Virus record (IMG/VR): IMGVR_UViG_3300028384_000562
Span: 1 to 42,732 of that record
Source of the DNA: a virus
Reading direction: 5' to 3' (one strand)
DNA length: 42,732 bases
Every line of letters begins with the position of its first letter. Within the stretch, counting starts at the first letter, position 1. The translations under genes were made by a program, and so were the position numbers. Below the pieces are notes generated by a model that searched no databases, had not been told where the DNA came from, and saw nothing but the letters and a program-made list of their open reading frames with translations. Below are positions 4,906 through 21,544 of this stretch, piece by piece.

Positions 4906-6609
4906 ATGCCAAGAGAACAAAGAGTTGCGTTGAACAAACCTGCGGTTGCCGAGACACCGCTAGGTGTTGTTTCGGAAAAGGGTGCTGTATCAGTCGGTAA
5001 TGTTACCGTTGATAATAAAGCAGCAGGTTTAGGTGAACAGTTAGCGAGTGCCTTGAACGTAGGTATGAAAGCGGCTACTACATTTGCTGAAGGTAAGAAC
5101 AAGCAAATGCGTGCTATGGATTCTATCCGTCAGCAGAGTAAGGGCCGTGCTTATGCTCGTACACGTTGGTCAGAGCTAGAAAAACAATTAGCTGATGAAG
5201 CTGTATACATTGAAGATGCTAACGGTAATCGTATAAACCAACACCGTAAGATTATTGAATTTGAATTAGAACGCATGAATGACCAGATGCGTGAACAGTC
5301 CGGTGAAATGCACCCTGAGTACTACAAAGCTGTAATCTCACACTTTGCTGATTACGGTGAAACTTACGCCGCTAAAAAAGACGGCGAACTCTTGGGTATG
5401 AAGCAAGAAGAGTTGCTAACAGAGATGGGGTACAACATTCAAGTTGACCGTGAATCTGGGTTAGGTGGTACTGAAATCATTGCTAAACTACAGCAATCAC
5501 AATTATTTCCAACTAAGAAAGCAGCGGCGAAATTCCATTTTGAAACAAGTATTGCAGAAATTACAGAAAAAGCGCAGAGAGACCCTACTTACGACTACCA
5601 AGCTGACATTGATAGGTTACTTAATGTATCTAGTCCAGACGGGGTTGTAGATTATAAAAAGGACCCAGAGCTAGGTAAGCTTATTGATGGTCTTGAAAGT
5701 AATATTAAGACCTTACGTTCAGCTCAGTACACAGCATCTAAGAATGCAATTACTAAAGGACGCGAAGAGGCTAAGCGTGGCTTGACTGAGTACTTTGTTA
5801 CAAATGACCCTGTTGGTGCTATGAAGCATTTACAAGCTAATCGTAGGTTCTTTGAACTGAAAGATTACAAAGATACTGAGGAGCTTATTAAGGGTATGGG
5901 TACCCGTGTATTTGCTCAAGGTATTAGCGACACAGATGCTTACCTACAACTTAGCCGTGATATCCAGATGGGTAAATTTAATCAAGCTAACTTAGAAGCT
6001 AATGCTCATTTACTAACAGAAGATGATTATAAAAAATTAGTACAGTCTAAGATTGACTTTGATAAAGGTATGGCTACTGGTGCCGCTAAGGATGCTAATG
6101 CTCGCTTTAATAAGCTCTTATCTTCAGGCCAAGGCGAAGCCTCTGGTGTAAGTGCCTTTGATTTTGATAAATCTCAAATTGGTGCTCGTAAGAAGAACTA
6201 CTACACTCAAGAAATCATGGCACGCCAAGAAGCATTTGTTAATGAGAACGGTTGGGCTGCTTTGACTGTATCCCAAGTTAACGCTTGGAATGATGAAATC
6301 ATGAAGCAGATTAACGGTATGAACTTTGAGGATGTAACTCCTGTTGGTCAACCTGCGACTACGGAAGAGCCTAATCCTGAACAACTACCTACTACTCCGG
6401 AAGTAACACCTCCGGCTGCAAAACCCGCTCCTAAAATTAGCTTTGAGGATTTTGTTAAGAAAGCTACGGTTATTGCTGATAAATTTGTAGAAAGAGGGCA
6501 TAGTTATGAGGACTTTGTACAAGCATTGGCTAGGGACACAGCCACTGACCCTGCTAGTATACGCTCTAATTTCCCTGAGTCTTCTTACAACAAACTTAAA
6601 GGAAAGTAA
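4906..6609 (+). CDS. Internal virion protein, T7 gp15-like
   Basis: A 567-residue mostly helical, soluble protein expected to form the middle part of the ejection tube that crosses the periplasm. The sequence is rich in Gln, Glu, Lys and Ala, with segments such as AVISHFADYGETYAAKKDGELL near residue 143. A Pro/Thr/Glu-rich linker at about 481-515 separates a final short helical region. No membrane segment or catalytic motif was seen. T7 gp15 is longer (about 747 residues), so this is a shorter version. An AGGAG lies 9 bases before the ATG. Assigned by order and composition. Confidence 0.75.
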   Translation: MPREQRVALNKPAVAETPLGVVSEKGAVSVGNVTVDNKAAGLGEQLASALNVGMKAATTFAEGKNKQMRAMDSIRQQSKGRAYARTRWSELEKQLADEAVYIEDANGNRINQHRKIIEFELERMNDQMREQSGEMHPEYYKAVISHFADYGETYAAKKDGELLGMKQEELLTEMGYNIQVDRESGLGGTEIIAKLQQSQLFPTKKAAAKFHFETSIAEITEKAQRDPTYDYQADIDRLLNVSSPDGVVDYKKDPELGKLIDGLESNIKTLRSAQYTASKNAITKGREEAKRGLTEYFVTNDPVGAMKHLQANRRFFELKDYKDTEELIKGMGTRVFAQGISDTDAYLQLSRDIQMGKFNQANLEANAHLLTEDDYKKLVQSKIDFDKGMATGAAKDANARFNKLLSSGQGEASGVSAFDFDKSQIGARKKNYYTQEIMARQEAFVNENGWAALTVSQVNAWNDEIMKQINGMNFEDVTPVGQPATTEEPNPEQLPTTPEVTPPAAKPAPKISFEDFVKKATVIADKFVERGHSYEDFVQALARDTATDPASIRSNFPESSYNKLKGK

Positions 6610-6610
6610 T

Positions 6611-7192
6611 ATGCGTAACTTAGGAGATGGTACTCGTGAAAACCCATGGACGGGTTCCGCTGTATGGCGTAACTCTTTAAAAGGTAAGGCTGCGGTTAAG
6701 GAAGTTGAGGAGCGTTACAATGTAAAGCTATCAGCGCCTCAGAAACGTATTGTAGAACTAGAAGGTTTTGTACCAGGTTTTTACATGGATGACGCAAAGG
6801 AACCTGTATTGACTTATGGTGTAGGCCAGACAGGTGAGTACATTAACTCAGGTTTTGTTGCGGCGTACGAAGAGCACCAAATGCGTGCAGAAAAAACCTT
6901 TGGTCCGTTATCACAATTCTCAGAGAAACTACAAGGTGAGTTGATGTCCTTAGTATATCGTGGCGACTTTAAACCAGGTTATAACTGGGTACGTCAATTT
7001 AATGAAGGCCGATTTGAAGATGCAGCAGATACACTGCTTATTCATCGTGAGTACATGGACCGTAAGAAAGCAAACCCTGATGATGGTGTAGTTAAACGTT
7101 TGGATGCTGCAAGTCAGGCTATCCGTGAAGCGGGTAAGGATGTATTCAAAAGCTCTGGTGTTAATTTAGCAGGAGGAACTGATGGCTATTGA
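6611..7192 (+). CDS. Lysozyme-like muramidase, probably virion-associated
   Basis: A 193-residue protein with a GH24 (T4 lysozyme)-like active site. Glu51 in ELEGF, Asp60 in YMDD and Thr68 in LTYGVG reproduce the E-x8-D-x(n)-T triad, with two extra residues between D and T compared with T4. It would cut peptidoglycan glycan strands. It sits between the gp15-like and gp16-like genes and overlaps the latter by 11 bases, which points to a particle protein that opens the wall during DNA entry. In T7 a transglycosylase domain at the gp16 N-terminus does this. No other endolysin was found, so it could also serve at lysis. The start at 6611 follows AGGA and removes an unlikely upstream extension. 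Confidence 0.78.
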   Translation: MRNLGDGTRENPWTGSAVWRNSLKGKAAVKEVEERYNVKLSAPQKRIVELEGFVPGFYMDDAKEPVLTYGVGQTGEYINSGFVAAYEEHQMRAEKTFGPLSQFSEKLQGELMSLVYRGDFKPGYNWVRQFNEGRFEDAADTLLIHREYMDRKKANPDDGVVKRLDAASQAIREAGKDVFKSSGVNLAGGTDGY

Positions 7193-10100
7193 TACTGATG
7201 ATATTTATGCAGAAGTCGGTATTGTTCCTCCTAAGGAGCAAGAGTTAGAAACAAATAGTATCTATGCGGAAGTTGGTATAGAACTACAAGAACCCGTAGG
7301 TAAAGCTGCTACCGCAGAGAAAACCGAAACAAAACCTTGGTACTTAGATGCAGAAGGTCAGGTTGACCTTAGTAAGTATGACCCTACACAGGAAAAGAAG
7401 AAGACTGTAGATACTGAGACTCCTGAAATGGATGACCAATCGATGTCTGACCCTGAGTACTTTGATACAGGTGCTGTACGTGAAGCTTCTAAAGGTCTTG
7501 TGTACGAAGAGCAGGTTAATAACGTTGAGTTAATCGAGGCACTTAAGCGCCGCTTTGGTGATAACTACGATAATGAGGAGCTTGTTGAAAAATGGGCTGC
7601 TGAGCAACACTGGATTAACTATAACTTACCACAGTTGACCTATGACGCTGCCACAATTAGCAGCTTGACAGCTCAAGAGAAGACAGATTATCTCTTGATG
7701 ATGACTACATGGGATAAAGTGGATGCCTTTGGTGATGGCTCACAGTCTTTCTGGGACCAATTGATTGAGATTGGTAAAAGTTTGGCTGCTGACCCTACAA
7801 CATACGTAGGCTTAGGTACCTTAGGTATTGGTTTAGCCGGTAAAGCCGGTGGTAAAGCTGTAACTAAGGAGTCCTTAAAGGCTTACTTACGTGATTCTGT
7901 GAAAGCTAAGGTTGGTTTGGCAATGGTTGAGGGTGGTGCATACACCGCCGCAGACGATGTTGCGAGACAAACTATTGAGCAAGTAGGTTCAGGTAAAGCA
8001 CGGGACTTCTCAGAGGTTGATATTGATGAAACCCGTACTGCCGTAGCTACAGGTGTGGGTGCTGTGACAGCCGGTGGTGTTACTTATGGTGCAGATAAAT
8101 TGCTCCGTAAGACAACCCCGACTACAGATGCCTCTAAGACGCAACAGGATGCCCTTGACACGGCTCCAGAGCCTAAGGTAACCGAGGATACCCCTGTCGC
8201 TCAAGAAACGCTTGATGCCCCTGCTACGAAGCCTGAGGCCGTAGAACCAGAGGTACCTACAGGTGAGGCTCCCGCAGGTGTACAGGCAGCCGCAGGACGA
8301 GAAGTAGTTGAGCAAGATTTTGATGAGCTACCTAAGCCATTAAAAGGTGCTAGACCTACGTACAAGAAATTCCAGGTTAAGTGGGCTAACGACTTACAGA
8401 AAGCTGTATATATTGCTAGCAATCGTAAGAACCCATCTAAGCGTCAGCCAGAGTACATGAAGTTTGCTGAAGAGCAACTTGGTATGTCTGCTGAGGAAAT
8501 CTACAAGCTTGGTGACGCTATGCGGGCCAAGATGGAAAACGATTGGGCTAAGCAACCTGATAAAACAGGTGGTACCTTAGAACCTAAGTTTGATTTTTTC
8601 CCTGAAAAGAAAATTGTAGATAAACCTGTAGATACTCCAGAGCCTAAGGTTGAGGGTGAAACACCACCAGAACCTGAGTTAACAAAACCTCTGACTAAAG
8701 AAGAGGAAGAGAAGGCTCAAGCTATTGTTGATGGCGATAAGAAGCCTGAGAGTACACTTAATCGTGACCGCAATCAGTCTAATTTGACTGAGGAAGAGTT
8801 GGACCGTATCGAAGCAGAGCTACGTGAGGACCCAACGGTACAAGGTAATGATGTTACCTTTAGTCGTGCTCGTAAGAAGGTTGTTGAAGTAACTAAGGAT
8901 GAAAAACTACTTGGTAAGTTCCTTGATGATGTAGTCACAGCGACTACCGGTTTGACTGAGAACATGGTTGCAGTACGTATGCTGCTATCATCAGTACAAA
9001 ACCGTATTGCGTCTAAATGGAATTCTAAGATGACTCCCAAGGAGCGTATGGAGGTTTTCTTTGAGAACCCTCAGTACTTCCGAGTCCTAGAGACATTGAC
9101 TAAGTTAGCTCAACGACAAGCTCAAGAAGCGGGCCGTGCGCTACAAGCTCATAGTATCGAAGTAAATCTCTTGGGTGATATTGTTGATAGACTTACTGCT
9201 AAGAACAAGAAAGTCCGTGAGTTAGCTAAGGATGCTGACAAAGCAGGTCTTGAAGGTGCAGAGCGTTTGGAGTTTATCAAGTCAGCGTTCACTGATAAGG
9301 AATGGAAGCAATTAGAAAAGACTATGGAAGAGCTTGTGTCTCAGAACGAAGCTTATCGTAAGTCTTTGCATAACCCATTACCTGCGTTTGAGAGAGATGA
9401 GAATATCTTTACGAAGTTCTCTCGTGTCGTTGCAGAAATCTGGACCTCAGCTAACTTGTTTAACACAGGTACCCAGATTGGTGCCATGGTTGGTACAGGC
9501 TTAAAACGTTTCACTATGAAAGGTGAATCGTATATGCAGTACATCATTGGTAAAGGTGCAGTGCTCTTTGGCGGTGACCCTAAGGCTCACCTACGTTGGC
9601 GACAAGTGCAGGAGCTGAACACAGCTAACTGGGCACAGACACACGAAACTTGGAAGATGGTAACTCGTCTGTTTACTGACCGTACAGGTGAAGGTGTTGA
9701 AGCTCAGATTCAAAGAGAATCCTTGGATGGTTGGACTACAAAGTGGGATAACCAACAGACTAAGGGTGCGATTAACTCTGATTACCTAGGTTTCCAAGAC
9801 CCTAATACACTATTTAAGTCCCTCGCTAACAAATTAATTGATGGAACTGGTGTATTTACTCGTGGTTCGTTCACAGCGTTAACGTTGATGGACGATATGA
9901 TGAAGCGTGTGTACTATCGCCCGTTTATTCGTATGAAAGCTGCGGGCCTTGGGTTAGATAAAGGCTTATCGGGTAAAGATTTGGATTTGTTTATTAATAA
10001 GTACGATGAAGCTTATACTTTATTCTATCAAAAGAAAGGAAAACGTGAGAATACCAAGCGTATTGTCATGGCCCGTGAGATGGAAGAGTTTAAGAAAAAC

Positions 10101-12246: not shown

Positions 12247-12452
12247 AACCAGTGATTATTGTTTGGGAAGATATTGAATCTCATGTTGGTTGGAGCGAGG
12301 AGAGTCTTGATGTAGACCCTCCTAAGTTTGAAACCATCGGTTATTTGATGAAAACTACGAAAAAGAAGGTGACTATTTGTGATACATTGCCGGGTACAGG
12401 TACTGTAACGGTATTCCCTAAGGGATGTATCATCGATATTATTGATTTATGA
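12243..12452 (+). CDS. Small conserved-looking protein before terL, unknown
   Basis: A 69-residue protein, mainly beta-strand by composition (VIIVWEDIESH, KKKVTICDT, TVTVFPKGCIIDI). It overlaps the membrane protein upstream as ATGA and the terL start downstream by 4 bases, so the three are translated as a coupled unit. Similar small proteins often sit just before the large terminase in podophages without an assigned role. No motif for nucleic acid binding or catalysis was seen. Confidence 0.7.
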   Translation: MKPVIIVWEDIESHVGWSEESLDVDPPKFETIGYLMKTTKKKVTICDTLPGTGTVTVFPKGCIIDIIDL

Positions 12453-14113
12453 AGGATATAAAAAAGTTAGTCAATAGTTTTCCCGACTATGTAGACTACA
12501 TTTGGGGATGTATCGGGCTACCCGCTGCAACTCCAATACAGAGGGATATTTCCAATACACTACAACAAGGCCACAGACGACTACTGATTGAGGCTTTTCG
12601 TGGTGTCGGTAAGACATATTTGACAGGTGCGTACGCAACATGGAGGCTCCTGAGGAACCCTAATGAGAAAGTACTCATTATATCGGCCTCAGGACCCCAT
12701 GCGGCGGCTATCAGCACGTTTATTCACAAGCTCCTAGGGGAAGTACCCCTGTTGGAGCATTTACGCCCTAGAACGGACCAGAGAAGCTCTGTGATGGCCT
12801 TCGATGTGAACGGGTGTAAGGCTACAGTACAACCCTCGGTAAAATGCCTGGGTATTAACAGCCAATTGCAGGGTAACCGAGCTAGTATCTTGATTGCCGA
12901 TGACGTAGAGACCAGTATTAACAGTGCTACGGAGGTCATGCGAGCTAAGATACTACAACAGATTAATGAATTTGATTCTATCCTACAAACTAATAGTGAT
13001 GCAAGTATAATCGGGCTAGGTACACCCCAGACGGGTGACAGTGTGTACAATAGGTTTCTTGAGAAGGGTTTTGTGGTCCGTATATGGCCCTCCAGAATCC
13101 CTGAGAAGCCTGAAATGTACGAAGGTAAGTTAGCCCCTTACATAGACAATAAAATCGCCTTAGGGGAGCCTACAGGGACTCCTACGGACACTAGATTCTC
13201 CCATGAGGATTTACTTGAACGTGAGGCATCCGTAGGACGTACATATTTCCGATTGCAGTATCAATTGGATACTACATTATCTGATGCGGATAAGTACCCG
13301 CTGAAACAGAGTGATATGATTATTATGGATGTTCCCATGGAGAAGGGACCAATCGGGCTATCCTACAGCGGAGCTAGGGATACAATTATATCAGAAATAC
13401 CCAATATCGGGTTCACTGGGGATGCCTTTCATGGCCCTCAGTACGTAGACAAGGAATTTACGAAGTATCAGTACAGTATTATGTCGATTGACCCCTCAGG
13501 ACGGGGTAGCGATGAAATGGGTTACGCTATAATAAAATATCTACATGGAAAGATATACATCATGGCCTGTGGGGGCCTACAGGGTGGGTACAATGAAGAT
13601 AATCTCTTTAAGTTAGCTACCTTAGCTAAGCAATATCAGGTAAATACCATGTTCATCGAGAGTAACTTTGGTGATGGTATGTTTGACCAGTTATTACGCC
13701 CAGTACTTAAGAAGGTGTACCCCGTGAGTATCGAGGAAGTCCGGAGTAGTAAACAGAAGGAACTGAGGATTATTGATACAATTGAACCATTATTAAATCA
13801 ACATAAATTAGTATTTGATAGGTCCCTTGTTAAAGGGGATATTCAGGAGGCCCTTAGTGACCCCATGAAGATGCCGTACAGCCTCATGTACCAGATAACT
13901 CATATTACGAGGACCAGAGGGTGCCTAAGGCATGATGACCGCTTAGATGCGCTAGCAATAGCCCTAGCAGCCGTTGTTGAAACCATAGGTATCGATGAGG
14001 ATGAAGCTAAGAAAGAATGGAAAGAAGAACAATTACAAGAAGAGCTTGATAGGTTCATAGGAGATGTACAGAATCCCCAGTGGGTACGGGGGTTAAAAAA
14101 GGTTGCCCTATAG
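12449..14113 (+). CDS. terL: Large terminase (packaging ATPase and nuclease)
   Basis: A 554-residue T7 gp19-like motor protein that pumps DNA into the prohead and cuts concatemers. The ATPase half shows Walker A FRGVGKT at residues 50-56 and Walker B ILIADDVE at 147-154, followed by a GLGTPQ coupling-type motif near 189. The RNase H-like nuclease half shows the acidic residues Asp348 (SIDPSGRG), Glu404 (FIESN) and Asp497/Asp500 (HDDRLDAL). Both halves look intact and the length is usual for the family (T7 about 586). The last four codons overlap a phage promoter. No gene follows for about 670 bases, consistent with this being the last late gene before the genome end. Confidence 0.95.
   Translation: MKDIKKLVNSFPDYVDYIWGCIGLPAATPIQRDISNTLQQGHRRLLIEAFRGVGKTYLTGAYATWRLLRNPNEKVLIISASGPHAAAISTFIHKLLGEVPLLEHLRPRTDQRSSVMAFDVNGCKATVQPSVKCLGINSQLQGNRASILIADDVETSINSATEVMRAKILQQINEFDSILQTNSDASIIGLGTPQTGDSVYNRFLEKGFVVRIWPSRIPEKPEMYEGKLAPYIDNKIALGEPTGTPTDTRFSHEDLLEREASVGRTYFRLQYQLDTTLSDADKYPLKQSDMIIMDVPMEKGPIGLSYSGARDTIISEIPNIGFTGDAFHGPQYVDKEFTKYQYSIMSIDPSGRGSDEMGYAIIKYLHGKIYIMACGGLQGGYNEDNLFKLATLAKQYQVNTMFIESNFGDGMFDQLLRPVLKKVYPVSIEEVRSSKQKELRIIDTIEPLLNQHKLVFDRSLVKGDIQEALSDPMKMPYSLMYQITHITRTRGCLRHDDRLDALAIALAAVVETIGIDEDEAKKEWKEEQLQEELDRFIGDVQNPQWVRGLKKVAL
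14102..14113 (+). promoter_or_regulatory. Phage RNA polymerase promoter P1
   Basis: GTTGCCCTATAG, identical to three other copies in the window. It is preceded by an A-rich stretch and predicted to start at the final G. It lies within the last codons of terL and would transcribe into the genome-end region, like the outermost promoters of T7 (phi-OR or phi-OL). Promoter identity is inferred from copy number, position and CTATAG similarity to T7. Confidence 0.75.
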
Positions 14114-14131
14114 GGGCCAGGGAGAGGCTAA

Positions 14132-14149
14132 GGTATACTTAGGGTATAC
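14132..14149. repeat. Paired GGTATAC motifs downstream of P1
   Basis: GGTATAC occurs at 14132-14138 and 14143-14149, 11 bp apart, separated by TTAG and followed by TAAGG. The same paired arrangement recurs at 18926-18942 after promoter P2. GTATAC is itself palindromic. This could be a protein-binding site or part of the CTTAGG-type repeats near the genome end. Confidence 0.5.
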
Positions 14150-14170
14150 TAAGGTTCTGATTAATATGCC

Positions 14171-14202
14171 TGTGGATAACTTAGGGATTCTTAGGTTATC
14201 CA
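14171..14202. repeat. Inverted repeat with perfect DnaA-box match
   Basis: TGGATAAC (14173-14180) and GTTATCCA (14195-14202) form an 8-bp inverted repeat with a 14-base loop. The left arm with two preceding bases reads TGTGGATAA (14171-14179), the reverse complement of the DnaA consensus TTATCCACA. The right arm gives a weaker match. It may be a hairpin for DNA maturation, a host DnaA site, or chance. Confidence 0.45.
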
Positions 14203-14295
14203 TGGGTACTTTCAAAAAATACCACAAAAATCCAGAAGGGTAACGTTAAGTGCAGAAATCAAAATTCCCCCATGACCTTTAAAATACCGCGAGAC

Positions 14296-14332
14296 ACCAA
14301 GGCTTACCAAGGAAAACCAAGGTAAACCAAGG
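14296..14332. repeat. ACCAAGG array A, four copies at exact 10-bp period
   Basis: Exact ACCAAGG copies start at 14296, 14306, 14316 and 14326. The period equals about one helical turn, so a bound protein would contact one face of DNA. T7 has arrays of a 7-bp motif (CCTAAAG) flanking its terminal repeat, and this array is in the matching place. Function is inferred by that analogy. Confidence 0.7.
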
Positions 14333-14430
14333 GGCCCGCAAAGCTTTGATGGGGTGCCCTTAGGATTCACAGGTAAGCTAATGGATAGCCTAGGGATGCA
14401 AACAGCACCAGCAAATTTTTCCTTAGGTAC

Positions 14431-14503
14431 ACCAAGCAACACCAAGGGCATACCAAGGGATACAAAAGGCAGCACCGGCAGCACGTACCAAGGGACACCA
14501 AGG
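14431..14503. repeat. ACCAAGG array B, five copies including one variant
   Basis: ACCAAGC at 14431, then exact ACCAAGG at 14441, 14452, 14487 and 14497, spaced 10-11 bp within two subgroups. A degenerate copy (ACCAAGA) lies at 14654. Array B is about 100 bp downstream of array A, so the pair could bracket the terminal repeat or cleavage site. Confidence 0.65.
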
Positions 14504-14729
14504 GACCTGATTTTTATGATTATCATCATTAGTAAAAATGCACCAATACCGTGCAAATCCTAAAAGTATGCACCAAAATAAACATCAATAAAAACAACAG
14601 CTTAGCCTGGTATCCCTGAAAAATCCTAATAAAAACAAGAACATACCTGGCGCACCAAGATAGTGCAAAGTGTGTCGAATTATGTAACCTCAAAATCCAT
14701 AAGTACTTGATTTATAAGCAATCACAAAC

Positions 14730-14746
14730 TTGGCACGGTACCTGCA
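14730..14746 (+). promoter_or_regulatory. Sigma54-type (-24/-12) promoter for the early genes
   Basis: TTGGCACGGTACCTGCA matches the RpoN consensus YTGGCACGRNNNTTGCW at all defined positions but one (C for the first T of TTGC). The invariant GG and GC have the required spacing. The expected start is near 14757, about 29 bases before the first early ATG, leaving room for a leader. A sigma70 reading of the same stretch (TTGGCA with TATAAA) gives only a 14-bp spacer. RpoN promoters need a host AAA+ activator, and none is encoded here. Confidence 0.6.
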
Positions 14747-14785
14747 AGGTATAAACCACGATTAACCGAAACGAGATTAAATAAT

Positions 14786-15085
14786 ATGAAAACACTTACC
14801 ATCACTTGCAAAGATTGGCGCAACAAGGAAGCGGAGTACACTTACGAAGAGTACAAAACGAAATGGCAGCACGGCACAATTAACGATTTGCGACAGCTTG
14901 CCATGTGGAATGGTGACGAAAAAGCCGTTGAGGAGCTGCAAGCAATGCAAGCGGCACTCGATGATTTACGGGAATATCTTGTTAGTAAGGATTTTATGAA
15001 AACATACAAGCGACAAAACCCAAACGATGATTTTTTTAGTCGTGATACCTTGGACCTTTTGAACAAATTAGCGGAGGAGTTTTAA
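14786..15085 (+). CDS. First early protein, unknown function
   Basis: A 99-residue protein, the first gene after the sigma54-like promoter. It is mixed alpha/beta by composition, with an N-terminal strand (MKTLTITCKDW) followed by charged helices (AEYTYEEYKTKWQ, AVEELQAMQAALDDLREYL). There are no cysteine clusters or membrane segments. The first gene to enter and be expressed in T7-like phages often counters host defence (T7 gene 0.3), so a host-takeover role is possible but is inference from position only. I do not recognise the family. Confidence 0.72.
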   Translation: MKTLTITCKDWRNKEAEYTYEEYKTKWQHGTINDLRQLAMWNGDEKAVEELQAMQAALDDLREYLVSKDFMKTYKRQNPNDDFFSRDTLDLLNKLAEEF

Positions 15086-15087
15086 TA

Positions 15088-15717
15088 ATGAATATTAAAC
15101 AAGCGGAATTAATTGTGGGCGGCTTATCTCAGACTAGCAAAATGCCTACCATGTCAATCAGCCTACCGGCTACACTTTGCAAAACCGGTAGCAAGCTGCG
15201 CCAAGTAGAAGGCAGCGTATGTAGTAAGTGCTACGCTTGCAAAGGCGCGTACACTTGGAAAAGTACCGAGACAGCACTTAAGCGCCGTTACGATGCGCTC
15301 GGCGGTGCTCAATGGGTTGAAGCCATGGTGGCGCTAATGAATAATAAAAAGCGCATAGTTAAATCGGGTTTGTTCCGGTGGCACGATAGCGGCGATTTGC
15401 AAAGCCTAGAGCACTTAGAAGCGATTGTGTCAGTAGTGCAGCAAACGCCACAAATTCGCCATTGGTTACCTACTAAGGAAAAGGCGCTTATTTCTGAGTA
15501 CTTGCGGAAAAACGGCGCATTCCCAGAAAATATGATTGTACGCGTTTCGGGTGCAATGATTGACGGCGCAGCGCCTAAGGTATCCGTTCAAACTAGCACC
15601 GTAACAAGCGACAAAAACGCTGCTACTTGTCGCGCCTTTGAGAATAACGGCGAGTGCGGCGAGTGCCGCCAATGTTGGGATAAAACCGTGCAAAATGTTG
15701 TTTACTTAGCGCACTAA
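15088..15717 (+). CDS. GP88-family protein with two four-cysteine clusters
   Basis: A 209-residue protein that I recognise as similar to the phage 'gene product 88' family, whose function is unknown. Clues are SKMPTMSISLPA (17-28), the cluster C31, C45, C48, C51 around VCSKCYACKGAYTW, the segment LFRWHDSGDLQS (95-106), and a second cluster C181, C190, C193, C196 near the C-terminus. Eight cysteines in two groups suggest zinc or an iron-sulphur cluster. It starts two bases after the previous stop, with GGAGG upstream. Its high use of GCG and CGC codons is typical of this early block and unlike the late genes. Confidence 0.75.
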   Translation: MNIKQAELIVGGLSQTSKMPTMSISLPATLCKTGSKLRQVEGSVCSKCYACKGAYTWKSTETALKRRYDALGGAQWVEAMVALMNNKKRIVKSGLFRWHDSGDLQSLEHLEAIVSVVQQTPQIRHWLPTKEKALISEYLRKNGAFPENMIVRVSGAMIDGAAPKVSVQTSTVTSDKNAATCRAFENNGECGECRQCWDKTVQNVVYLAH

Positions 15718-15731
15718 TGGAGGGTAGAAAA

Positions 15732-15854
15732 ATGACCTTGGAAGATATTTTGTTTGAACGTTACGCCAAGCTTGTAGCCGCAAGCGTACGCGCAGGACTG
15801 CCATATCCTACGTGGCAGGAATATTTAAAAGAATGGAGCACTGACAATGATTAA
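15732..15854 (+). CDS. 40-residue early protein
   Basis: A short gene preceded by an excellent ribosome site (GGAGGG at 15719-15724, about 7 bases from the ATG). The product starts MTLEDILFERYAKL and ends WSTDND. It is probably helical and amphipathic, with AGLPYPTW in the middle. Its stop lies 8 bases inside the next gene, so the two are coupled. The strong ribosome site and tight packing make it likely to be real despite its size. Function unknown. Confidence 0.6.
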   Translation: MTLEDILFERYAKLVAASVRAGLPYPTWQEYLKEWSTDND

Positions 15855-16644
15855 TTCGCACGTAGTAAGTTTATATGATTATACCGGCGTAACAGTAACG
15901 CCATGGGCTGAGGCGGGTTATCAATGCTACTGCTACGATATCCAACACCCTGAGCACGGCGAAACGGTGCGCTTTGATTCAGGCGGCGCTATCCATAAAC
16001 TACGCTTAGACCTGCACGCTAAGGATTCCGCAGGGCACCATGCTTTCGTGCAGGAATTGTACAAGCGCCATGTTGATAAAACGCATATTATGTTCGCTTT
16101 TCCTGTTTGCACTGATTTGGCGGTATCAGGCGCAGCGCATTTTAAGCGCAAGGCGCAGCTAAACCCTGAATTCCAAAACGAGGCGGCGGGGCACGCTATG
16201 GCTTGCGCTTGGCTTGGTGATTTATTGGAAGTGCCATATTTTATTGAAAACCCTGTTTCAGTACTTAGCACGCTATGGCGAAAGCCTGATTTCTCTTTTC
16301 ATCCGTACGAGTACGGGGGCTATATCAGCGAGCACGAAGCGCTACACCCGCTTTATCCGGATTACATAGCGCCAAGGGATGCCTACAGCAAAAAAACGTG
16401 CCTATGGACCGGAGGCGGCTTTGTGATGCCTGATAAAATACCGGTACAGTGCGAAAGCTTTGGCAGTAGCACGCAGCACCGCAAATTAGGTGGGAAAAGT
16501 ATGAAAACAAAAAACATTCGCAGCGCTACGCCCCGAGGTTTTGCTAATGCCGTTTTTGAAGCGAACGAGTTGTTAGATTTAGATTATGATTACGCCGAGG
16601 TTTGCCGAAACGGTAAGCCGGTTGCGGAGTGCAATTGTTGCTAA
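15847..16644 (+). CDS. C5 DNA methyltransferase-like protein
   Basis: A 265-residue protein resembling phage proteins related to cytosine-C5 methyltransferases. An N-terminal SAM-site-like motif (VVSLYDYTG, residues 6-14, then AGYQCYCYDI) is followed by a motif IV-like FPVCTD (85-90) with the candidate catalytic Cys88, ENP at 134-136, KKTCLWTGGG at 182-191 and a closing RSATPRGFANAV (225-236). Classical enzymes have Pro-Cys in motif IV. Here it is Val-Cys, so activity or target base may differ. The usual target-recognition region is short (family members are often over 300 residues). It could protect phage DNA from restriction, or modify it otherwise. The start overlaps the previous gene by 8 bases. 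Confidence 0.65.
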   Translation: MINSHVVSLYDYTGVTVTPWAEAGYQCYCYDIQHPEHGETVRFDSGGAIHKLRLDLHAKDSAGHHAFVQELYKRHVDKTHIMFAFPVCTDLAVSGAAHFKRKAQLNPEFQNEAAGHAMACAWLGDLLEVPYFIENPVSVLSTLWRKPDFSFHPYEYGGYISEHEALHPLYPDYIAPRDAYSKKTCLWTGGGFVMPDKIPVQCESFGSSTQHRKLGGKSMKTKNIRSATPRGFANAVFEANELLDLDYDYAEVCRNGKPVAECNCC

Positions 16645-16655
16645 TTTTTTGTTGT

Positions 16656-16667
16656 AGGGTATACCCT
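16656..16667. repeat. AGGGTATACCCT palindrome
   Basis: A perfect 12-bp palindrome in the 45-base gap between the methyltransferase-like gene and the next early gene. It contains the GGTATAC core found twice after P1 and twice after P2. It is a candidate operator, but no binding protein is identified. Confidence 0.45.
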
Positions 16668-16689
16668 GGTTCTATATTAGGAGATTCTA

Positions 16690-16866
16690 ATGTCTGTTTT
16701 TACTGTTGGTATTGATTTTGAAGTACTGCGCCTTGAGATTGAAGCGAGCACGCCGGAAGAGGCACGCGAAAAGGCACTTAAATTAATTAAAAATAACCCG
16801 TTTTATCAATCGCCAGATTATTGGGTTGGTTATGTCGATGATTCCGAAGGGCAGGAGCTTTTATAA
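16690..16866 (+). CDS. 58-residue early protein
   Basis: Small protein beginning MSVFTVGIDFEVLRLEIEA, with an EEAREKALKLIKNN helix and an acidic tail (VDDSEGQELL). The strand-helix-strand pattern and the ASTPEEAREKAL stretch recall small phage proteins that pair with host enzymes, but no family is recognised. AGGAG lies about 7 bases before the ATG, and its stop overlaps the next start (TAATG). It opens a run of closely packed small early genes after a 45-base gap. Confidence 0.65.
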   Translation: MSVFTVGIDFEVLRLEIEASTPEEAREKALKLIKNNPFYQSPDYWVGYVDDSEGQELL

Positions 16867-17093
16867 TGAACGAAAACGCTTTGTATTTATTCGCTGATAT
16901 TCCGAACGATGCCGAGGGGCAAGCTTTTATACGCTCGCTTAGAAAGTACCGAAACCCACGGTATAAAATGCGCGTACGTGGGCAGGGTTTAAACGCTGAA
17001 GGGCACGCCCTTGGTTGGCGCAAGTTTACGTACGGTGCGCCCTTAAAATATAGTGCTCGCTTGCGTGTTTATATGGAGGACACCCAGAAATGA
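16866..17093 (+). CDS. Basic 75-residue early protein
   Basis: Overlaps the previous stop (TAATG) and the next start by 4 bases (ATGA). The N-terminal half is acidic (LFADIPNDAEG), and the rest is strongly basic and aromatic (SLRKYRNPRYKMRVRGQG, WRKFTYG). Clusters of Arg, Lys and Tyr suggest nucleic acid binding or interaction with an acidic host protein. This is composition only; no recognised domain. Confidence 0.62.
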   Translation: MNENALYLFADIPNDAEGQAFIRSLRKYRNPRYKMRVRGQGLNAEGHALGWRKFTYGAPLKYSARLRVYMEDTQK

Positions 17094-17278
17094 AAGCTAA
17101 GCGCTATTTTGTGCTCGATTCAGCCGGATTGCTGCACGCCCTTGGTTATTGCGACACGTGGCACGATGCCTACGAGGCGGCGCATAACGTGGACACACAA
17201 AACGACATTTTAGCGGTGTTTGATGAAACAGACGCTCGCGACATTTATCAACGAATAGAGGGTTACCTATATGCTTAA
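17090..17278 (+). CDS. 62-residue early protein
   Basis: A compact alpha/beta protein (KRYFVLDSAGLLHALG, then a helix WHDAYEAAHNVD, then DILAVFDETDARDIYQ). The pattern resembles small stand-alone domains found repeatedly in phage early regions. It is coupled to both neighbours (4-base overlap upstream, 8-base overlap downstream), and AGGA lies upstream. Function unknown. Confidence 0.62.
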   Translation: MKAKRYFVLDSAGLLHALGYCDTWHDAYEAAHNVDTQNDILAVFDETDARDIYQRIEGYLYA

Positions 17279-17519
17279 AATTAATTCAGAGACTGTATGC
17301 GATGCGGTGGCGTACGATTGGGAAGTAATGCACGATATTCTCGGCGATGTTCGCGAGGGTACCTTGGATTACTCAGTGTTTAATGAGTGCCGCAAGCGCC
17401 TATGCGATAAATTAGCAGGTATGAGCGCCTTATTGGGGCACACCGAAGATAGCGCCAATGTGGACGAGGTTATCGATGATATTCGTACGCTCGCTTGGTT
17501 GGCTTGGGAGATTGCATAA
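17271..17519 (+). CDS. Acidic helical early protein
   Basis: 82 residues, predominantly helical and acidic, with three cysteines (SETVCDAV, NECRKRLCDKL) and a C-terminal helix ending WLAWEIA. Acidic helical early proteins in phages are often DNA mimics or inhibitors, but nothing specific is visible here. It overlaps the previous gene by 8 bases, and its stop shares TAATG with the next gene. Confidence 0.62.
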   Translation: MLKINSETVCDAVAYDWEVMHDILGDVREGTLDYSVFNECRKRLCDKLAGMSALLGHTEDSANVDEVIDDIRTLAWLAWEIA

Positions 17520-17647
17520 TGTACTACTTAACCCTGATTGCAACGAATCAGCGTATCGTTAAATCTGAGCGCCGTGAGCACGTAGAGAAACTCTTACAAA
17601 GCTTAGCGGAAAAAACCGATTGGAAAATTGAATATGAAAGCATTTAA
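17519..17647 (+). CDS. 42-residue early protein
   Basis: Starts in the TAATG overlap with the preceding stop. The product (MYYLTLIATNQRIVK, then a charged helix HVEKLLQSLAEK and a final strand DWKIEYES) has a plausible beta-alpha-beta layout and codon use like its neighbours. No good independent ribosome site was seen, so translation would depend on coupling. The gap after it (17648-17712) is AT-rich and may hold a weak host promoter. Confidence 0.5.
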   Translation: MYYLTLIATNQRIVKSERREHVEKLLQSLAEKTDWKIEYESI

Positions 17648-17712
17648 AACTTTTTACCTGTTAAAAAACCGGTACAATAATCACTTGTATGTATCTACGG
17701 GAAAAACCTGGT

Positions 17713-17922
17713 ATGCCTAAAAACGATGATTGGCGAGCGCCTCGCCCAGTGTATGAAGATGACCGGTTGGAGTCGGTTGATAGACTAGTTAAACAATATC
17801 GCAATATGTGGCAGGATGCCGATTTTGACGATAGACTTGATGATGCTGCACGTTATGAAACGTTGTATCGCTACTACAAAAAACAATTGGAAGAGGGAAA
17901 TAACTATGCGCCAAAATTCTAA
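17713..17922 (+). CDS. Acidic/Arg-rich early protein, 69 residues
   Basis: Begins MPKNDDWRAPRPVYEDD and continues as a charged helical protein rich in Asp, Arg and Tyr (DRLVKQYRNMWQDADFDDRL, YYKKQLEEG). An in-frame ATG at 17689 would add eight residues, but it has no ribosome site. GGGA at 17699 favours 17713. A TACAAT at 17673-17678 could be a -10 box, although its -35 is poor. The gene overlaps the helix-turn-helix gene downstream by 17 bases. Function unknown. Confidence 0.6.
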   Translation: MPKNDDWRAPRPVYEDDRLESVDRLVKQYRNMWQDADFDDRLDDAARYETLYRYYKKQLEEGNNYAPKF

Positions 17923-18115
17923 AATTGATAAACGTTTTAAATTAACCGATAGTGACAGGGAGTTAATTATACAATTGAACGAAGAACGCCGCCGGTTACA
18001 GGCTGAGCTAAAGAAGGTACAAATTGGAGCTATCGCGAAAACGTTTGAAGTCACCACGCAAACTATTTATGAAGTATTGGGAGGTCATGATGATAAAGTC
18101 AGAACAGCCAAGTAA
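17906..18115 (+). CDS. Helix-turn-helix DNA-binding protein
   Basis: A 69-residue protein with a basic, coiled N-terminal half (SDRELIIQL, NEERRRLQAELKK) and a helix-turn-helix at about residues 38-59 (IGAIAKTFEVTTQTIYEVLG), similar to the recognition part of resolvase/Hin-like or sigma-like domains. It is probably a transcription regulator of phage or host genes. The start at 17906 follows GAGGG 8 bases upstream and was chosen over a longer upstream version that reads through the previous gene. Candidate targets are the GGTATAC palindromes at 14132, 16656 and 18926, but that link is speculation. Confidence 0.68.
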   Translation: MRQNSKIDKRFKLTDSDRELIIQLNEERRRLQAELKKVQIGAIAKTFEVTTQTIYEVLGGHDDKVRTAK

Positions 18116-18257
18116 AGATTGGGACGTACCACAGGCGCTTAAGGATATTGGTATCACTAAGCAAATGATTATTGATTGTTGGACAGGCTATGCCGAAGGA
18201 AAAGATATATGGGGTTCAAGCGATTCAAAGGGAGGCGAAGAATGCGCGAAGGTGTGA
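18090..18257 (+). CDS. 55-residue early protein
   Basis: Starts MIKSEQPSKDWDVPQALKDIG. The ATG at 18090 is 5 bases after GGAGG. A tandem ATG at 18087 is too close to that site. The core QALKDIGITKQMIIDCWTGY looks like two short helices with a turn and might bind protein or DNA. The C-terminus is Gly/Ser-rich and acidic. Overlaps both neighbours by 16-26 bases. No family recognised. Confidence 0.55.
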   Translation: MIKSEQPSKDWDVPQALKDIGITKQMIIDCWTGYAEGKDIWGSSDSKGGEECAKV

Positions 18258-18472
18258 CCTTTGGAAAAATCCATGATGAGCTGTATTTGGTGCAGCGTTA
18301 TGGTGAAACCGTGGGCGAGGTGTATCGTCCAATGGGTACCGCCTTTTGGTTAATCCGTTGTAATAAAGAAAATAGCAAACTAAAATACCAAAACCTGGTT
18401 GATGCCAAGCGTGCCTGTATTGATATGCTGACACGTGATGAAATCGGGCTTGATTACTTTGAAGGATGTTAA
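18242..18472 (+). CDS. 76-residue early protein
   Basis: MREGVTFGKIHDELYLVQ, then strands EVYRPMGTAFWLIRCN and a helix LVDAKRACIDMLTRDE. The alternating beta strands followed by a helix suggest a small compact fold. GGGAGG lies 8 bases upstream of the ATG. It overlaps the preceding gene by 16 bases and is followed three bases later by the next start. Function unknown. Confidence 0.6.
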   Translation: MREGVTFGKIHDELYLVQRYGETVGEVYRPMGTAFWLIRCNKENSKLKYQNLVDAKRACIDMLTRDEIGLDYFEGC

Positions 18473-18474
18473 TT

Positions 18475-18708
18475 ATGAAAATCTTATCTACAATCTTGCG
18501 TAAAACTGTACGCTTAAACAAAACACGCCGTGCCTTTGATTTTATGGGTAGAGGCTATATTCTCGCCGTACGCTCGACTAAGAGCCGAGGCTATGGGATA
18601 ACACCCGCAGCCGGAGTTAAGCCCTCTAGGGAGTTTACAGCGATTCACATGGGGTATATCACCCTTTACCGCTCAGTAATGAAGCACACACTAAAGGAGA
18701 ATTTCTAA
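18475..18708 (+). CDS. Basic 77-residue early protein
   Basis: Very basic (KILSTILRKTVRLNKTRRAF, VRSTKSRGYG), with a C-terminal aromatic and basic stretch (GYITLYRSVMKHTLKENF). The start at 18475 is preferred over an upstream ATG at 18466 because AAGGA sits 9 bases before it. The charge suggests contact with nucleic acid or an acidic protein. TAATG overlap joins it to the next gene. Confidence 0.6.
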   Translation: MKILSTILRKTVRLNKTRRAFDFMGRGYILAVRSTKSRGYGITPAAGVKPSREFTAIHMGYITLYRSVMKHTLKENF

Positions 18709-18878
18709 TGAAAGAATTTAGAAACGAATTGACCCTCTTTAAGGAGGATTTTATCGATGCTGACACTTGGTTGGAGGTATGCAATCAAGCAGGGTTTGAT
18801 GAGGATGATGCCCTTGGTAAAAATACCCTGAAAGTCGTTTGGTCTATCTCATCAATCGCTGATTGGCAGGACGAATAA
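18708..18878 (+). CDS. Acidic 56-residue protein, last early gene before RNA polymerase
   Basis: MKEFRNELTLFKEDFIDAD, followed by WLEVCNQAGFDEDDALG and a hydrophobic WSISSIADW near the end. About a quarter of residues are Asp or Glu. Small acidic proteins just before or after T7 RNA polymerase can inhibit host enzymes (T7 gp0.7 or gp2 act on host RNA polymerase), but no similarity is visible. AAGGAG lies about 8 bases upstream. Promoter P2 begins two bases after its stop. Confidence 0.6.
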   Translation: MKEFRNELTLFKEDFIDADTWLEVCNQAGFDEDDALGKNTLKVVWSISSIADWQDE

Positions 18879-18880
18879 AT

Positions 18881-18897
18881 TAATTGTTGCCCTATAG
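18881..18897 (+). promoter_or_regulatory. Phage RNA polymerase promoter P2
   Basis: TAATTGTTGCCCTATAG, identical over 17 bases to P4. It can be aligned to the T7 promoter, which also opens TAAT and closes CTATAG, with one base fewer between. It lies 65 bases before the RNA polymerase gene, so the polymerase would amplify its own transcription. The transcript start is expected at 18897. Confidence 0.8.
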
Positions 18898-18925
18898 CGG
18901 GAAAGAAAAGGAAAGGGAAGCTTAG

Positions 18926-18952
18926 GGTATACTTAGGTATACCTTAGGTACC
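18926..18952. repeat. GGTATAC/CTTAGG repeats upstream of RNA polymerase
   Basis: GGTATAC at 18926-18932 and 18936-18942, then GGTACC at 18947-18952, each preceded by TTA or CTTA at about 10-bp spacing. It is similar to the pair after P1 (shared CTTAGGGTATACT). The site lies between promoter P2 and the RNA polymerase start, suitable for repression or as a maturation element. Confidence 0.5.
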
Positions 18953-18961
18953 CTTAAGGAG

Positions 18962-21544
18962 ATGATTTTTATTATGTACAACACAGATAATTTCTTAGAG
19001 CAGCCTGAGCAGTTACAGGACTTAATCTTGGAGCAAGCATTCATGGAGCAAAAGTTCCTAGAGGATGCAACAAACAAATATGAGAATAGTATTAACCGTA
19101 TGCTCCAGGCGGGGTTATTCGCTAATACTACTGAGGGTGCCGTGCTACAGAAAATGTCTGTGGAAGCAGTCGCAGAACAAATATCATCATATTTTTCTAG
19201 CTCAGTCCGTGGGCAGGGTGCTATATTCCGTGATTACCTCAAGAATAACTTTGAGGGCCGTGAGGAAATTCTTGCATTTACTGTACTTGAATTCCTGATT
19301 AACGCTGTTTCCGTACGTACCGCAAAGGTACCGGCGTTAGCTCTAGCGGTTACCAGTAAGGTCCTAGACTTACTTTCTGTTGAGCAATTCCAGAAGAACG
19401 AGCCTAAGTTTTATTCTTATCTTGAATATGAATATAAGAGCCGTGGTATTGGGTACATCAATTCCCGTAAGAAAAAGTTAGCTAATATGACAGGTAATAT
19501 CATTGACCCTGTACAGGAAGGTAAGGAAGCATCCTTTAAGGCTAACATTGGTGCCCGATTGATTGATTGTGTACTTAGCAGTGGCTGTAATCTATTCGAG
19601 GCTAGAATTCAGTATGTTAACGGTAAATCCGAGAGGGTACTAACGTTAACCGAGGATTCCCTAAAGGTCATTGGGCGAGTAAAGGATAGAAATGTATTAT
19701 TTTCTGTTACCTATAAGCCCTTGATTGCTCCACCGCTACCATGGACTACGTTGTGGGATAACGGAGGTTATTATTGTAATAATAATCAAACATTCATCCG
19801 TAACAGCAAATCCTGTAAGTATGTTGATGCTAATTATGAGCCTAAGCAATTAGAGCGGGTATTTGATGTTATTAATCACATTCAAAATACAAGATGGAAA
19901 ATAAATACATTCATCTTGGACGTTGTTAATGAGATTATCGGCGGCAGCCTGGTGGACCCTAATACGCCTAGCAGTAACCCAAAGTTTTACGCAGGGTTAC
20001 CGTACATGGATACATTGAACGTGTATGACATGGTGCGTAGGGAAGATTATGGTCCCTTGGATGACCGAGGTATGCACATTAATCGTGAAGATTATAAAAA
20101 CTGGTACAGGGATAAAGAGGTACAGCTAAAGAAGCTTGAGGCCATCCGCAGTAAACGAATCATGTTCACTCTGGCCCACAACATAGCTACTGAGTACAAG
20201 GATAGAGAAGCGATGTACTTCACGTACAACACGGACTTCCGTGGACGCTTATACCCTATTCAGCAAATCCTGAATCCTCAGTCTACCGGTGCAGTCAAGT
20301 CATTCTTAACGTTCGCTGATGAGGAACACCTGACTGACCAAGGTGTATACTGGTTGTATATACATACTGCCAATACCTATGGTTTAGACAAGGAATCCTA
20401 CGAGGCACGCCGAGCATGGGTACTGGAAAACTATGAGCAAATCCTAGAGAACGCTAGAAACCCGATTGAGAACATTGAGGTATGGAATCAGGCTGATGAA
20501 CCCTTGATGTACTTAGCGGCTTGTAAGGCTATCTTGGACCATTCCAAGGGCAAACCTGTGGGCCTCCCAATTAGTCTGGACGCTACGTGCTCAGGCTTGC
20601 AGCTATACAGTGGCTTGCTAAAGGACTTGGACGGTGCAAAGGCAGTTAATGTCATTGATAAAACCGAGCACGGTAAACTTGAACGCCCTGCTGATGTATA
20701 TACTGATGTTGCGAACAAGGTAACTGAGTATCTACAGAACGGTGATTACCCATCACAATTTACATTTACTACACGTGATGGTGAGTTTAAATCTGTATCG
20801 ACAGAACAAGAGGCTAAGGACCTTCTCGGGAACGTCACCAGGAAACTCACTAAGCGCAACGTAATGACGGTCCCATACTCAGTAACCAAGCGGGGTATGT
20901 TTGACCAAATCAGAGAATTGCTCGATGAAATGGAAGATAACGAGGAAGTATTCTGGGAGGGTGATAAATGGGTTGTTGCAAAACTACTTGTGGAGCTAAA
21001 CGCTCGGGCCATCAACGAGATTGTACGAGGTGCAAGTGAGGGGCAAGAATTTGTGAAGCACGTGGTTAAGGAGTTTTACTCAGAGCAAGCAGATTACCCG
21101 CTTATCTGGGAAACACCGTTTTTCAATTTCCCTGTTGTACAGTGGAAGACGAAGAAAAAGAAAAGGAAGGTTAACTCAGTCTTTGGGTACCTTACCTTGC
21201 AGACTCCGACTAATAAGATTAATAAGCAACAGCAAAGCAATGGGATAGCTCCAAATCTAATCCATAGCCTAGACGCTACGCTTATGTACCTTACAGTCGA
21301 GAAGATGCGAGCATTAGGCGGTAAGTCTTTCATGCTTATTCACGATTCCTTTGGGGTACCACCGAATGATGTGGAGAATCTCAATAGCAGCGTGCGTGAG
21401 TCGTTTGTCGAGCTGTTTAAGACTAATCCATTGGACCATTGGGTACGTCAAATCTCACCTGAGTATGTCGAGGGTGCTGAGGATGTCATGCTTAATACCA
21501 TGGACTTAGATGATATATTGTCTAGTACATATATCTTTTCATAA
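18962..21544 (+). CDS. T7-like single-subunit RNA polymerase
   Basis: An 860-residue DNA-directed RNA polymerase that transcribes the middle and late genes. Catalytic residues stand out: Asp540 (LDATCSG), Lys631 and Tyr639 in TKRNVMTVPYS (the same numbers as in T7), and Asp795 in IHDSFG. TDFRGRLYPI is the usual fingers/palm motif. The specificity-loop region, before NGIAPNLIHSLD, is shorter than in T7 and begins with a Lys/Arg run, in line with a different promoter sequence. AAGGAG (18955-18960) is almost against the first ATG at 18962 and 13 bases from the second at 18974. The true start may be 18974 (856 residues). Confidence 0.96.
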   Translation: MIFIMYNTDNFLEQPEQLQDLILEQAFMEQKFLEDATNKYENSINRMLQAGLFANTTEGAVLQKMSVEAVAEQISSYFSSSVRGQGAIFRDYLKNNFEGREEILAFTVLEFLINAVSVRTAKVPALALAVTSKVLDLLSVEQFQKNEPKFYSYLEYEYKSRGIGYINSRKKKLANMTGNIIDPVQEGKEASFKANIGARLIDCVLSSGCNLFEARIQYVNGKSERVLTLTEDSLKVIGRVKDRNVLFSVTYKPLIAPPLPWTTLWDNGGYYCNNNQTFIRNSKSCKYVDANYEPKQLERVFDVINHIQNTRWKINTFILDVVNEIIGGSLVDPNTPSSNPKFYAGLPYMDTLNVYDMVRREDYGPLDDRGMHINREDYKNWYRDKEVQLKKLEAIRSKRIMFTLAHNIATEYKDREAMYFTYNTDFRGRLYPIQQILNPQSTGAVKSFLTFADEEHLTDQGVYWLYIHTANTYGLDKESYEARRAWVLENYEQILENARNPIENIEVWNQADEPLMYLAACKAILDHSKGKPVGLPISLDATCSGLQLYSGLLKDLDGAKAVNVIDKTEHGKLERPADVYTDVANKVTEYLQNGDYPSQFTFTTRDGEFKSVSTEQEAKDLLGNVTRKLTKRNVMTVPYSVTKRGMFDQIRELLDEMEDNEEVFWEGDKWVVAKLLVELNARAINEIVRGASEGQEFVKHVVKEFYSEQADYPLIWETPFFNFPVVQWKTKKKKRKVNSVFGYLTLQTPTNKINKQQQSNGIAPNLIHSLDATLMYLTVEKMRALGGKSFMLIHDSFGVPPNDVENLNSSVRESFVELFKTNPLDHWVRQISPEYVEGAEDVMLNTMDLDDILSSTYIFS

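Follow-up and report, generated by a model that had tools for sequence, protein, structure and literature searches.

A predicted sigma54 promoter with NtrC-like palindromes in the leader of the early genes of a T7-like phage

The window, that is the whole stretch of DNA analysed, is a single IMG/VR record of 42,732 bases (IMGVR_UViG_3300028384_000562) from a T7-like phage. This label, given in a preliminary description of the sequence, is borne out by genes for a single-subunit RNA polymerase (RNAP), a terminase large subunit (TerL), a primase-helicase, a DNA polymerase, a T7-type SSB and a Gp10A-like capsid protein. Single-subunit RNAP, T7-type replication and TerL genes are on the same strand, the combination that defines the Autographiviridae, and the RNAP gene is followed, all on the plus strand, by those for T7-type SSB, primase-helicase, DNA polymerase, exonuclease, ribonucleotide reductase and the head proteins. 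The RNAP gene presumably belongs to the early unit, of which it would encode the last key product. The major capsid protein (34590-35642) contains a carbohydrate-binding module (CBM_5_12, residues 163-200), and a 506-aa protein (12-1532), perhaps a tail fibre, has a putative Ig domain (He_PIG) and, below threshold, a match to fibrinogen-C. No tRNA, sought as a clue to the host, was found in the window.

The leader between the end of TerL and the first early gene is 672 bp long (Table 1). The preliminary description placed a genome-end region here, which is plausible in view of the short direct repeats of the ACCAAGG/TTAGG type; that they form the terminal repeat is only probable. The product of the first early gene had no match in Pfam, PHROG or the phage collection. 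An RNA element in the leader and captured plasmid or phage DNA were both considered and set aside: 14100-15100 had no Rfam match at gathering scores, and 14500-14800 had no match in the collections of phages and plasmids.

Table 1. Features of the leader and of the genes that surround it
Feature	Position	Strand	Basis or remark
Terminase large subunit (TerL)	12449..14113	+	phrog_38, 8.4e-109; upstream border of the leader
Candidate phage-RNAP promoter TTGCCCTATAGGG	14103..14115	+	end of TerL; similar copies at 18887, 21548, 31450
Leader with short direct repeats, ACCAAGG/TTAGG type	14130..14510	+	probable terminal-repeat region
Second NtrC-box-like palindrome TGCACCAATACCGTGCA	14539..14555	.	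centre about -210; 2 mismatches; conserved T of right half missing
Possible third half-site GCACCAAAATA	14570..14580	+	repeat family D3; weak
NtrC-box-like palindrome CGCACCAAGATAGTGCA	14651..14667	.	centre about -98; 2 mismatches; whole GCAnnAnnnTnnTGC core kept
Predicted IHF site, perfect consensus (AATCAAGTACTTA)	14700..14712	-	about -57 to -45, between enhancer and promoter
Predicted sigma54 (-24/-12) promoter TTGGCACGGTACCTGCA	14730..14746	+	12/13 defined consensus positions
First early gene, 99 aa	14786..15085	+	ORF list
Second early gene, Gp88-like	15088..15717	+	PF17338, E 2.7e-27
T7-type single-subunit RNA polymerase	18962..21544	+	PF00940, 7.7e-87; phrog_414, 1.5e-179

The preliminary description reported a match to the RpoN consensus at all defined positions but one, close to the first early ATG, and both points were confirmed. 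Scored against YTGGCACGNNNNTTGCW, the site differs only by a C for T in TTGC; the GG (14732-14733) and GC (14744-14745) of GG-N10-GC are intact and predict a transcription start near 14757, from which the ATG at 14786 is at about +30. The site is non-coding, lies between TerL and the gene at 14786 and is on the same strand as this gene. Nowhere else in the window, on either strand, is the consensus matched with at most two mismatches. With up to three mismatches, 29 matches were found for 28.9 expected; the near-perfect site alone therefore stands out. A plus-strand match with at most one mismatch arose in 13 of 20,000 (0.065%) Markov-resampled copies of 14250-14785. The exact 17-mer was found in six other contigs, within ORFs in four of them; the two intergenic copies, in viral contigs (L245:7371-7387 and L247:12114-12130; L numbers are our labels for loci), are 7 and 37 bp before a same-strand ORF. 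The site was also considered as a promoter for the phage RNAP and rejected, as it occurs once and the repeated TTGCCCTATAG element sits elsewhere.

Upstream of this site, we searched for the binding site of NtrC, with the consensus TGCACCANNNTGGTGCA and conserved core GCAnnAnnnTnnTGC reported for E. coli NtrC (PMC8743547). With up to two mismatches allowed, the window yielded just two sites, the 17-bp palindromes of Table 1. As 18-mers they are repeats of each other, 112 bp apart, and among 20,000 resampled leaders 0.25% had at least one NtrC-like site and none had two. Enhancers located about 70-150 bp upstream are described for many sigma54 promoters (PMC3844500, PMC7057263). The GCACCAA halves of both palindromes resemble the ACCAAGG repeats of the leader, from which they may be derived.

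A perfect match to the IHF consensus, WATCAANNNNTTR, lies between the palindromes and the predicted promoter. Two perfect matches were found in the window for 2.4 expected, so only the placement is of note, the chance of a perfect match within the 62-bp stretch being about 0.5%. IHF is reported to aid looping at sigma54 promoters (PMC7057263).

No sigma54-activator domain (PF00158) was detected in the record that forms the window, nor in 27 chosen sigma54-bearing records, with a model that was positive in 14 control genomes. A phage-encoded activator was rejected on this ground, and the activator is most likely the host's, probably NtrC. The TTGCCCTATAG element is present at the ends of TerL and of the RNAP gene, and before the RNAP and head genes; these positions are suggestive of promoters for the phage RNAP. 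The number of elements of this type is not above chance (5 found for 3.2 expected, with up to two mismatches).

Searched for sigma70 promoters, the region 14114-18962 had no match scoring 10/12 or higher, and the leader lacked an extended -10. The leader thus has neither the TTGACA-16/18-TATAAT nor the extended -10 of a T7-type sigma70 early promoter. The leader contains a single 9/12 match, GGGACA-17-TATGAT (14492-14520); matches of this grade numbered 12 for 9.6 expected in 14000-19200, both strands. The lack of a sigma70 match of this higher grade means no more than that such a promoter is not visible and is no positive evidence, since 89% of the resampled copies of the 672-bp leader likewise had no 10/12 match. 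TATAAA at 14750, considered as a sigma70 -10, was not among the scanned matches.

Relatives of the window were collected by alignment of the TerL protein (best 80 of at least 596 viral candidates and best 80 of 107 from genomes). We analysed 162 TerL loci, of which 153 have at least 200 bp after TerL, less than 1000 bp in 18 of these. Strong sigma70 sites were observed in L373 and L449, which look alike (TerL 79% identical; TTGACA-16-TATAAT, 12/12), and in L378 and L379, also alike (TerL 61%; two 11/12 sites), where 0.01-0.07 sites of this grade are expected by chance, L449 and L378 themselves being outside the resampling. The matches of three other relatives are near chance or modestly above it: two 10/12 matches in L377 (0.8 expected), one in the 796 bp of leader available in L374 (0.3 expected), and, in L376 (TerL 73%, RNAP 42% identical), no 10/12 match and an extended -10, TGTTATAAT, among four of at least 5/6 (1.1 expected). 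The leader of L375 has no match of 10/12 or better, and those of L370, L372, L006 and L007 are too short to judge. The sigma54 element is absent from the closest TerL relatives with leaders long enough to judge. Because L373/L449 and L378/L379 carry strong sigma70 sites, the window looks like a promoter swap relative to some of its close relatives. Neither Lau218 nor CRP-143, the closest named phages by RNAP, has a sigma54 site with one or no mismatch in its record; TTGAC-type sigma70-like sites are visible by eye in CRP-143. No sigma54 or NtrC site with one or no mismatch was found in the parts examined of phage 023Pt_psg01 and Caulobacter phage Seuss, which are gp88 relatives.

Sigma54 sites with at most one mismatch were observed in the first 2 kb of 6 of 152 TerL leaders; the reversed pattern was present in 1 of 152 (Fisher p 0.12; best-80 sets). 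These six leaders represent four lineages, as two pairs look like near copies (pairs of this kind are L380/L381, L479/L481, L373/L449 and L378/L379), and their eight sites all face downstream. No NtrC match with up to two mismatches occurs in any of the 152 leaders (one in the control). Taken alone, the sigma54 excess among TerL relatives is weak and not significant. On the TerL tree, the sigma54 state requires six changes for eight rows, including the window and L311, and still six when rows with leaders below 1 kb are set aside; the element is therefore scattered, as for a trait often gained and lost. In two Xanthobacter genome contigs (L479 and L481, possibly prophage), CTGGCACGGGGCCTGCA, with the same C as the window, lies about 615 bp after the TerL relative.

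Two loci resemble the window more closely. In L311 (TerL 57-59% identical), which was found through the NtrC scan described below and was therefore excluded from the 152 leaders, NtrC boxes with no and one mismatch lie among three one-mismatch sigma54 sites; from the last of these it is about 235 bp to the next small ORF, and a 10/12 sigma70 match falls within this interval. L343 is a 6.9-kb fragment encoding T7-like primase-helicase and DNA polymerase, in which two perfect NtrC boxes lie about 210-233 bp before TTGGCACGGTGTCTGCA. This last site shares the window's C, and an ATG 31 bp downstream opens a 72-aa frame. Judged by its motifs, the L343 leader is closely similar to that of the window and has the closest layout; L311 is comparable.

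A motif-only scan of IMG/VR with TGGCACGATNNTTGCT gave at least 120 stretches for the forward pattern and 82 in all for the reversed control. Intergenic sites, as defined by a simple ORF caller with a 60-aa minimum, made up 64 of the 126 forward matches listed and 5 of 82 control matches (p 2e-12); sites that were both intergenic and no more than 250 bp before a same-strand ORF made up 36 of the 126 forward matches listed and 4 of 82 (p 1e-5). Of the 120 forward loci listed, 7 carry a gene related to the second early gene of the window and 20 one related to its primase-helicase gene, near copies included, compared with none of the 82 control loci in either case. DNA polymerase was not enriched (6 of the 120 forward loci listed, 7 of 82 controls), and the RNAP and TerL of the window had no match among the 120 forward loci listed.

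Similarly, a scan of IMG/VR for perfect NtrC boxes gave at least 120 loci. A sigma54 site with at most one mismatch was present within 350 bp of the box in 16 of the 120 listed and a reversed sigma54 site in none, the reversed control being lenient, here as for the TerL leaders, as it was free of the GG/GC requirement; the 16 include near copies (L264, L305, L320, L327, L352, L354 and L365 look alike). Starting from sigma54 sites, an NtrC box with two or fewer mismatches lies within 400 bp upstream of one of the 64 intergenic sites listed (L128, a perfect box). In L016, which carries gp88, the leader contains three perfect sigma54 sites; the record's sole NtrC-like box with at most two mismatches lies about 1 kb off. 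Among 24 loci with gp88 homology, sigma54 sites precede gp88 in L016 only; L018 has one elsewhere, and the control gave none. No T7-type RNAP was found in L016; the same holds for 27 sigma54-bearing records chosen besides the window, many of which are fragments.

Dense or unusual groups of motifs were observed in some of these loci. In L016:4510-4610, reverse-strand sigma54-like sites (4594-4610, two mismatches; 4528-4544, about three by eye) are close to, and face, two perfect forward ones. The viral contig L103 has 15 sigma54-like sites with at most one mismatch in 2 kb (6519-8538), including four perfect sites spaced by just 26-28 bp; this spacing is too dense for separate promoters and may perhaps reflect a holoenzyme sink. 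NtrC boxes, perfect or with one mismatch, form arrays of three to seven in L342:8552-8770 (six boxes, four perfect), L262:3218-3433 (four perfect), L291:8063-8256 and L305:806-1113. A terminase was matched beside the arrays of L342 and L262. The L342, L262 and L291 stretches have no sigma54 site within three mismatches, and L305 has sigma54 sites. Palindromes resembling the Fur box, whose consensus is of the type AATGATTATCATT, were noted in the early leaders of several phages, with three copies in Roseobacter phage CRP-143; the positions are L242:42254-42387, L241:2749-2767, L016:4634-4652, L352 near 5315 and, in a weak form (5 mismatches of 19), 14512-14530 of the window.

The preliminary description proposed an early promoter dependent on RpoN and an AAA+ activator. 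This proposal gains support from the NtrC-like palindromes at enhancer distance and the perfect IHF consensus, and it also fits with the lack of a good sigma70 match, the lack of a phage activator and the other viral leaders that combine NtrC and sigma54 motifs. The tie to host nitrogen, motility or stress status that it suggested can be narrowed, as the palindromes would point to nitrogen. We consider it likely, from the motifs and their arrangement, that the leader holds a sigma54 promoter, that host NtrC would act on it from enhancers near -98 and -210, and that IHF would bend the DNA near -50. Sequence, spacing, rarity, related leaders and the lack of both a good sigma70 match and a recognisable phage activator are observed; that the proteins bind, that the promoter is active, which activator serves it and what this means biologically are inferred, assuming that the host possesses RpoN and NtrC. 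In such a host, sigma54-RNA polymerase would settle on 14730-14746 and wait there in a closed complex. Upon nitrogen limitation, NtrC would be phosphorylated, bind both palindromes and contact the promoter through an IHF-assisted loop, ATP hydrolysis then opening the promoter. The transcript from about 14757 would cover the early genes up to that of the phage RNAP, which would in turn drive the middle and late genes from its own promoters (candidates at 14103, 18887, 21548 and 31450). A single host-dependent step would thereby tie the onset of infection to the nitrogen response of the host. In T7, most of the genome enters the cell by transcription, so DNA entry might here also await the nitrogen signal.

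A real sigma54 promoter could instead respond to another host activator (of motility, phage shock or other), the palindromes being by-products of the leader repeats. The likeness of the GCACCAA halves to these repeats speaks for this, as do the rarity of NtrC boxes upstream of the intergenic sigma54 sites listed and the remote box of L016; yet the 17-bp spacing is kept in both palindromes at enhancer distance, a pair never obtained in the resampled leaders, and perfect boxes occur in a comparable setting in L311 and L343, which makes this account unlikely. It is slightly less probable still that the early genes are driven from sigma70 sequences, such as 14492-14520 or a site that departs from the consensus, with the sigma54 site as an accessory. 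One 9/12 match is indeed present, L311 holds both types of site, and the T7 A1 promoter is itself far from the sigma70 consensus. However, 9/12 matches are at chance level, and the leader has nothing of the 10/12 or extended -10 grade, whereas the relatives described above reach 11/12 and 12/12.

Two further accounts deny a role in transcription or any role at all. That the leader titrates host sigma54 polymerase or NtrC instead of starting transcription would recall the dense arrays found elsewhere, on both strands or without partner sites (sigma54-like in L103, NtrC boxes in L342 and L262), but in the window a lone predicted promoter in the correct orientation stands 30-40 bp ahead of the first early gene, its enhancer-like sites are spaced as for a promoter, and no second host promoter is evident; we regard titration as very improbable. 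Chance resemblance is the least credible reading: three-mismatch sites are as frequent as expected and four of the six exact 17-mer copies fall inside ORFs, but a sigma54 site, two NtrC-like sites and an IHF site within about 210 bp are jointly rare, and similar leaders exist elsewhere.

Returning to the sigma54-NtrC promoter, we put forward tentatively, as a speculation less likely to be right than wrong, a wider idea: that capture of nutrient regulators is a widespread and repeatedly evolved way of timing infection in phages of heterotrophic bacteria. T7-like phages would swap their sigma70 early promoter for a sigma54-NtrC one, so that transcription-driven entry and takeover await a nitrogen-starvation signal, and some other phages would add dense sigma54, NtrC and Fur-like arrays that titrate these host regulators. 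In the textbook view, sigma70 drives the early transcription of T7-like phages, whatever the physiology of the host. A sigma54 promoter is silent without an ATP-driven activator, and infection would therefore be gated by a nutrient signal. If true, this would provide a testable mechanism by which the nitrogen status of heterotrophic bacteria affects their lysis by phages, in parallel to the NtcA sites of cyanophages. A promoter swap could be studied by natural comparison with the TerL relatives whose leaders are of the sigma70 type (L373/L449, L378/L379).

Links between RpoN and phages have been described in other forms. Loss of rpoN renders Salmonella and Pseudomonas resistant to some phages, an effect attributed there to RpoS, glutamine shortage or receptors and not to a phage promoter (PMC8744999, PMC6188897). 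Pectobacterium phage Q19, like the window, is a T7-like phage linked to sigma54; there the link is a phage protein, putatively sigma54-like (weak HHpred match, E 0.67), with no sigma54 promoter described alongside it (PMC7693777). Among the papers listed by searches of PMC, none was seen to describe phage early genes served by a sigma54 promoter. Among bacterial sigma54 promoters, named types are glnAp2 (NtrC) and nifH (NifA). The window shares with bacterial sigma54-NtrC promoters the -24/-12 element, upstream NtrC-like palindromes at enhancer distance and an IHF consensus in between; it differs in its location in a phage leader before early genes, in the C for T of the -12 element and in boxes with two mismatches. 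The early promoters A1-A3 of T7 occupy the same place, after the presumed genome end and ahead of early genes leading to the phage RNAP, but they are sigma70 promoters independent of an activator, whereas sigma70 matches in the window's leader stay below 10/12. In cyanobacteria, NtcA is a factor of the CRP type. Predicted NtcA sites are present in 16 of 16 genomes of T4-like cyanophages, 1-16 per genome, before diverse genes (PMC3037559). This is the nearest idea encountered in the literature covered, as phage genes are placed there under a global nitrogen regulator of the host; the difference is that in the window sigma54 and an AAA+ activator would gate the very first genes.
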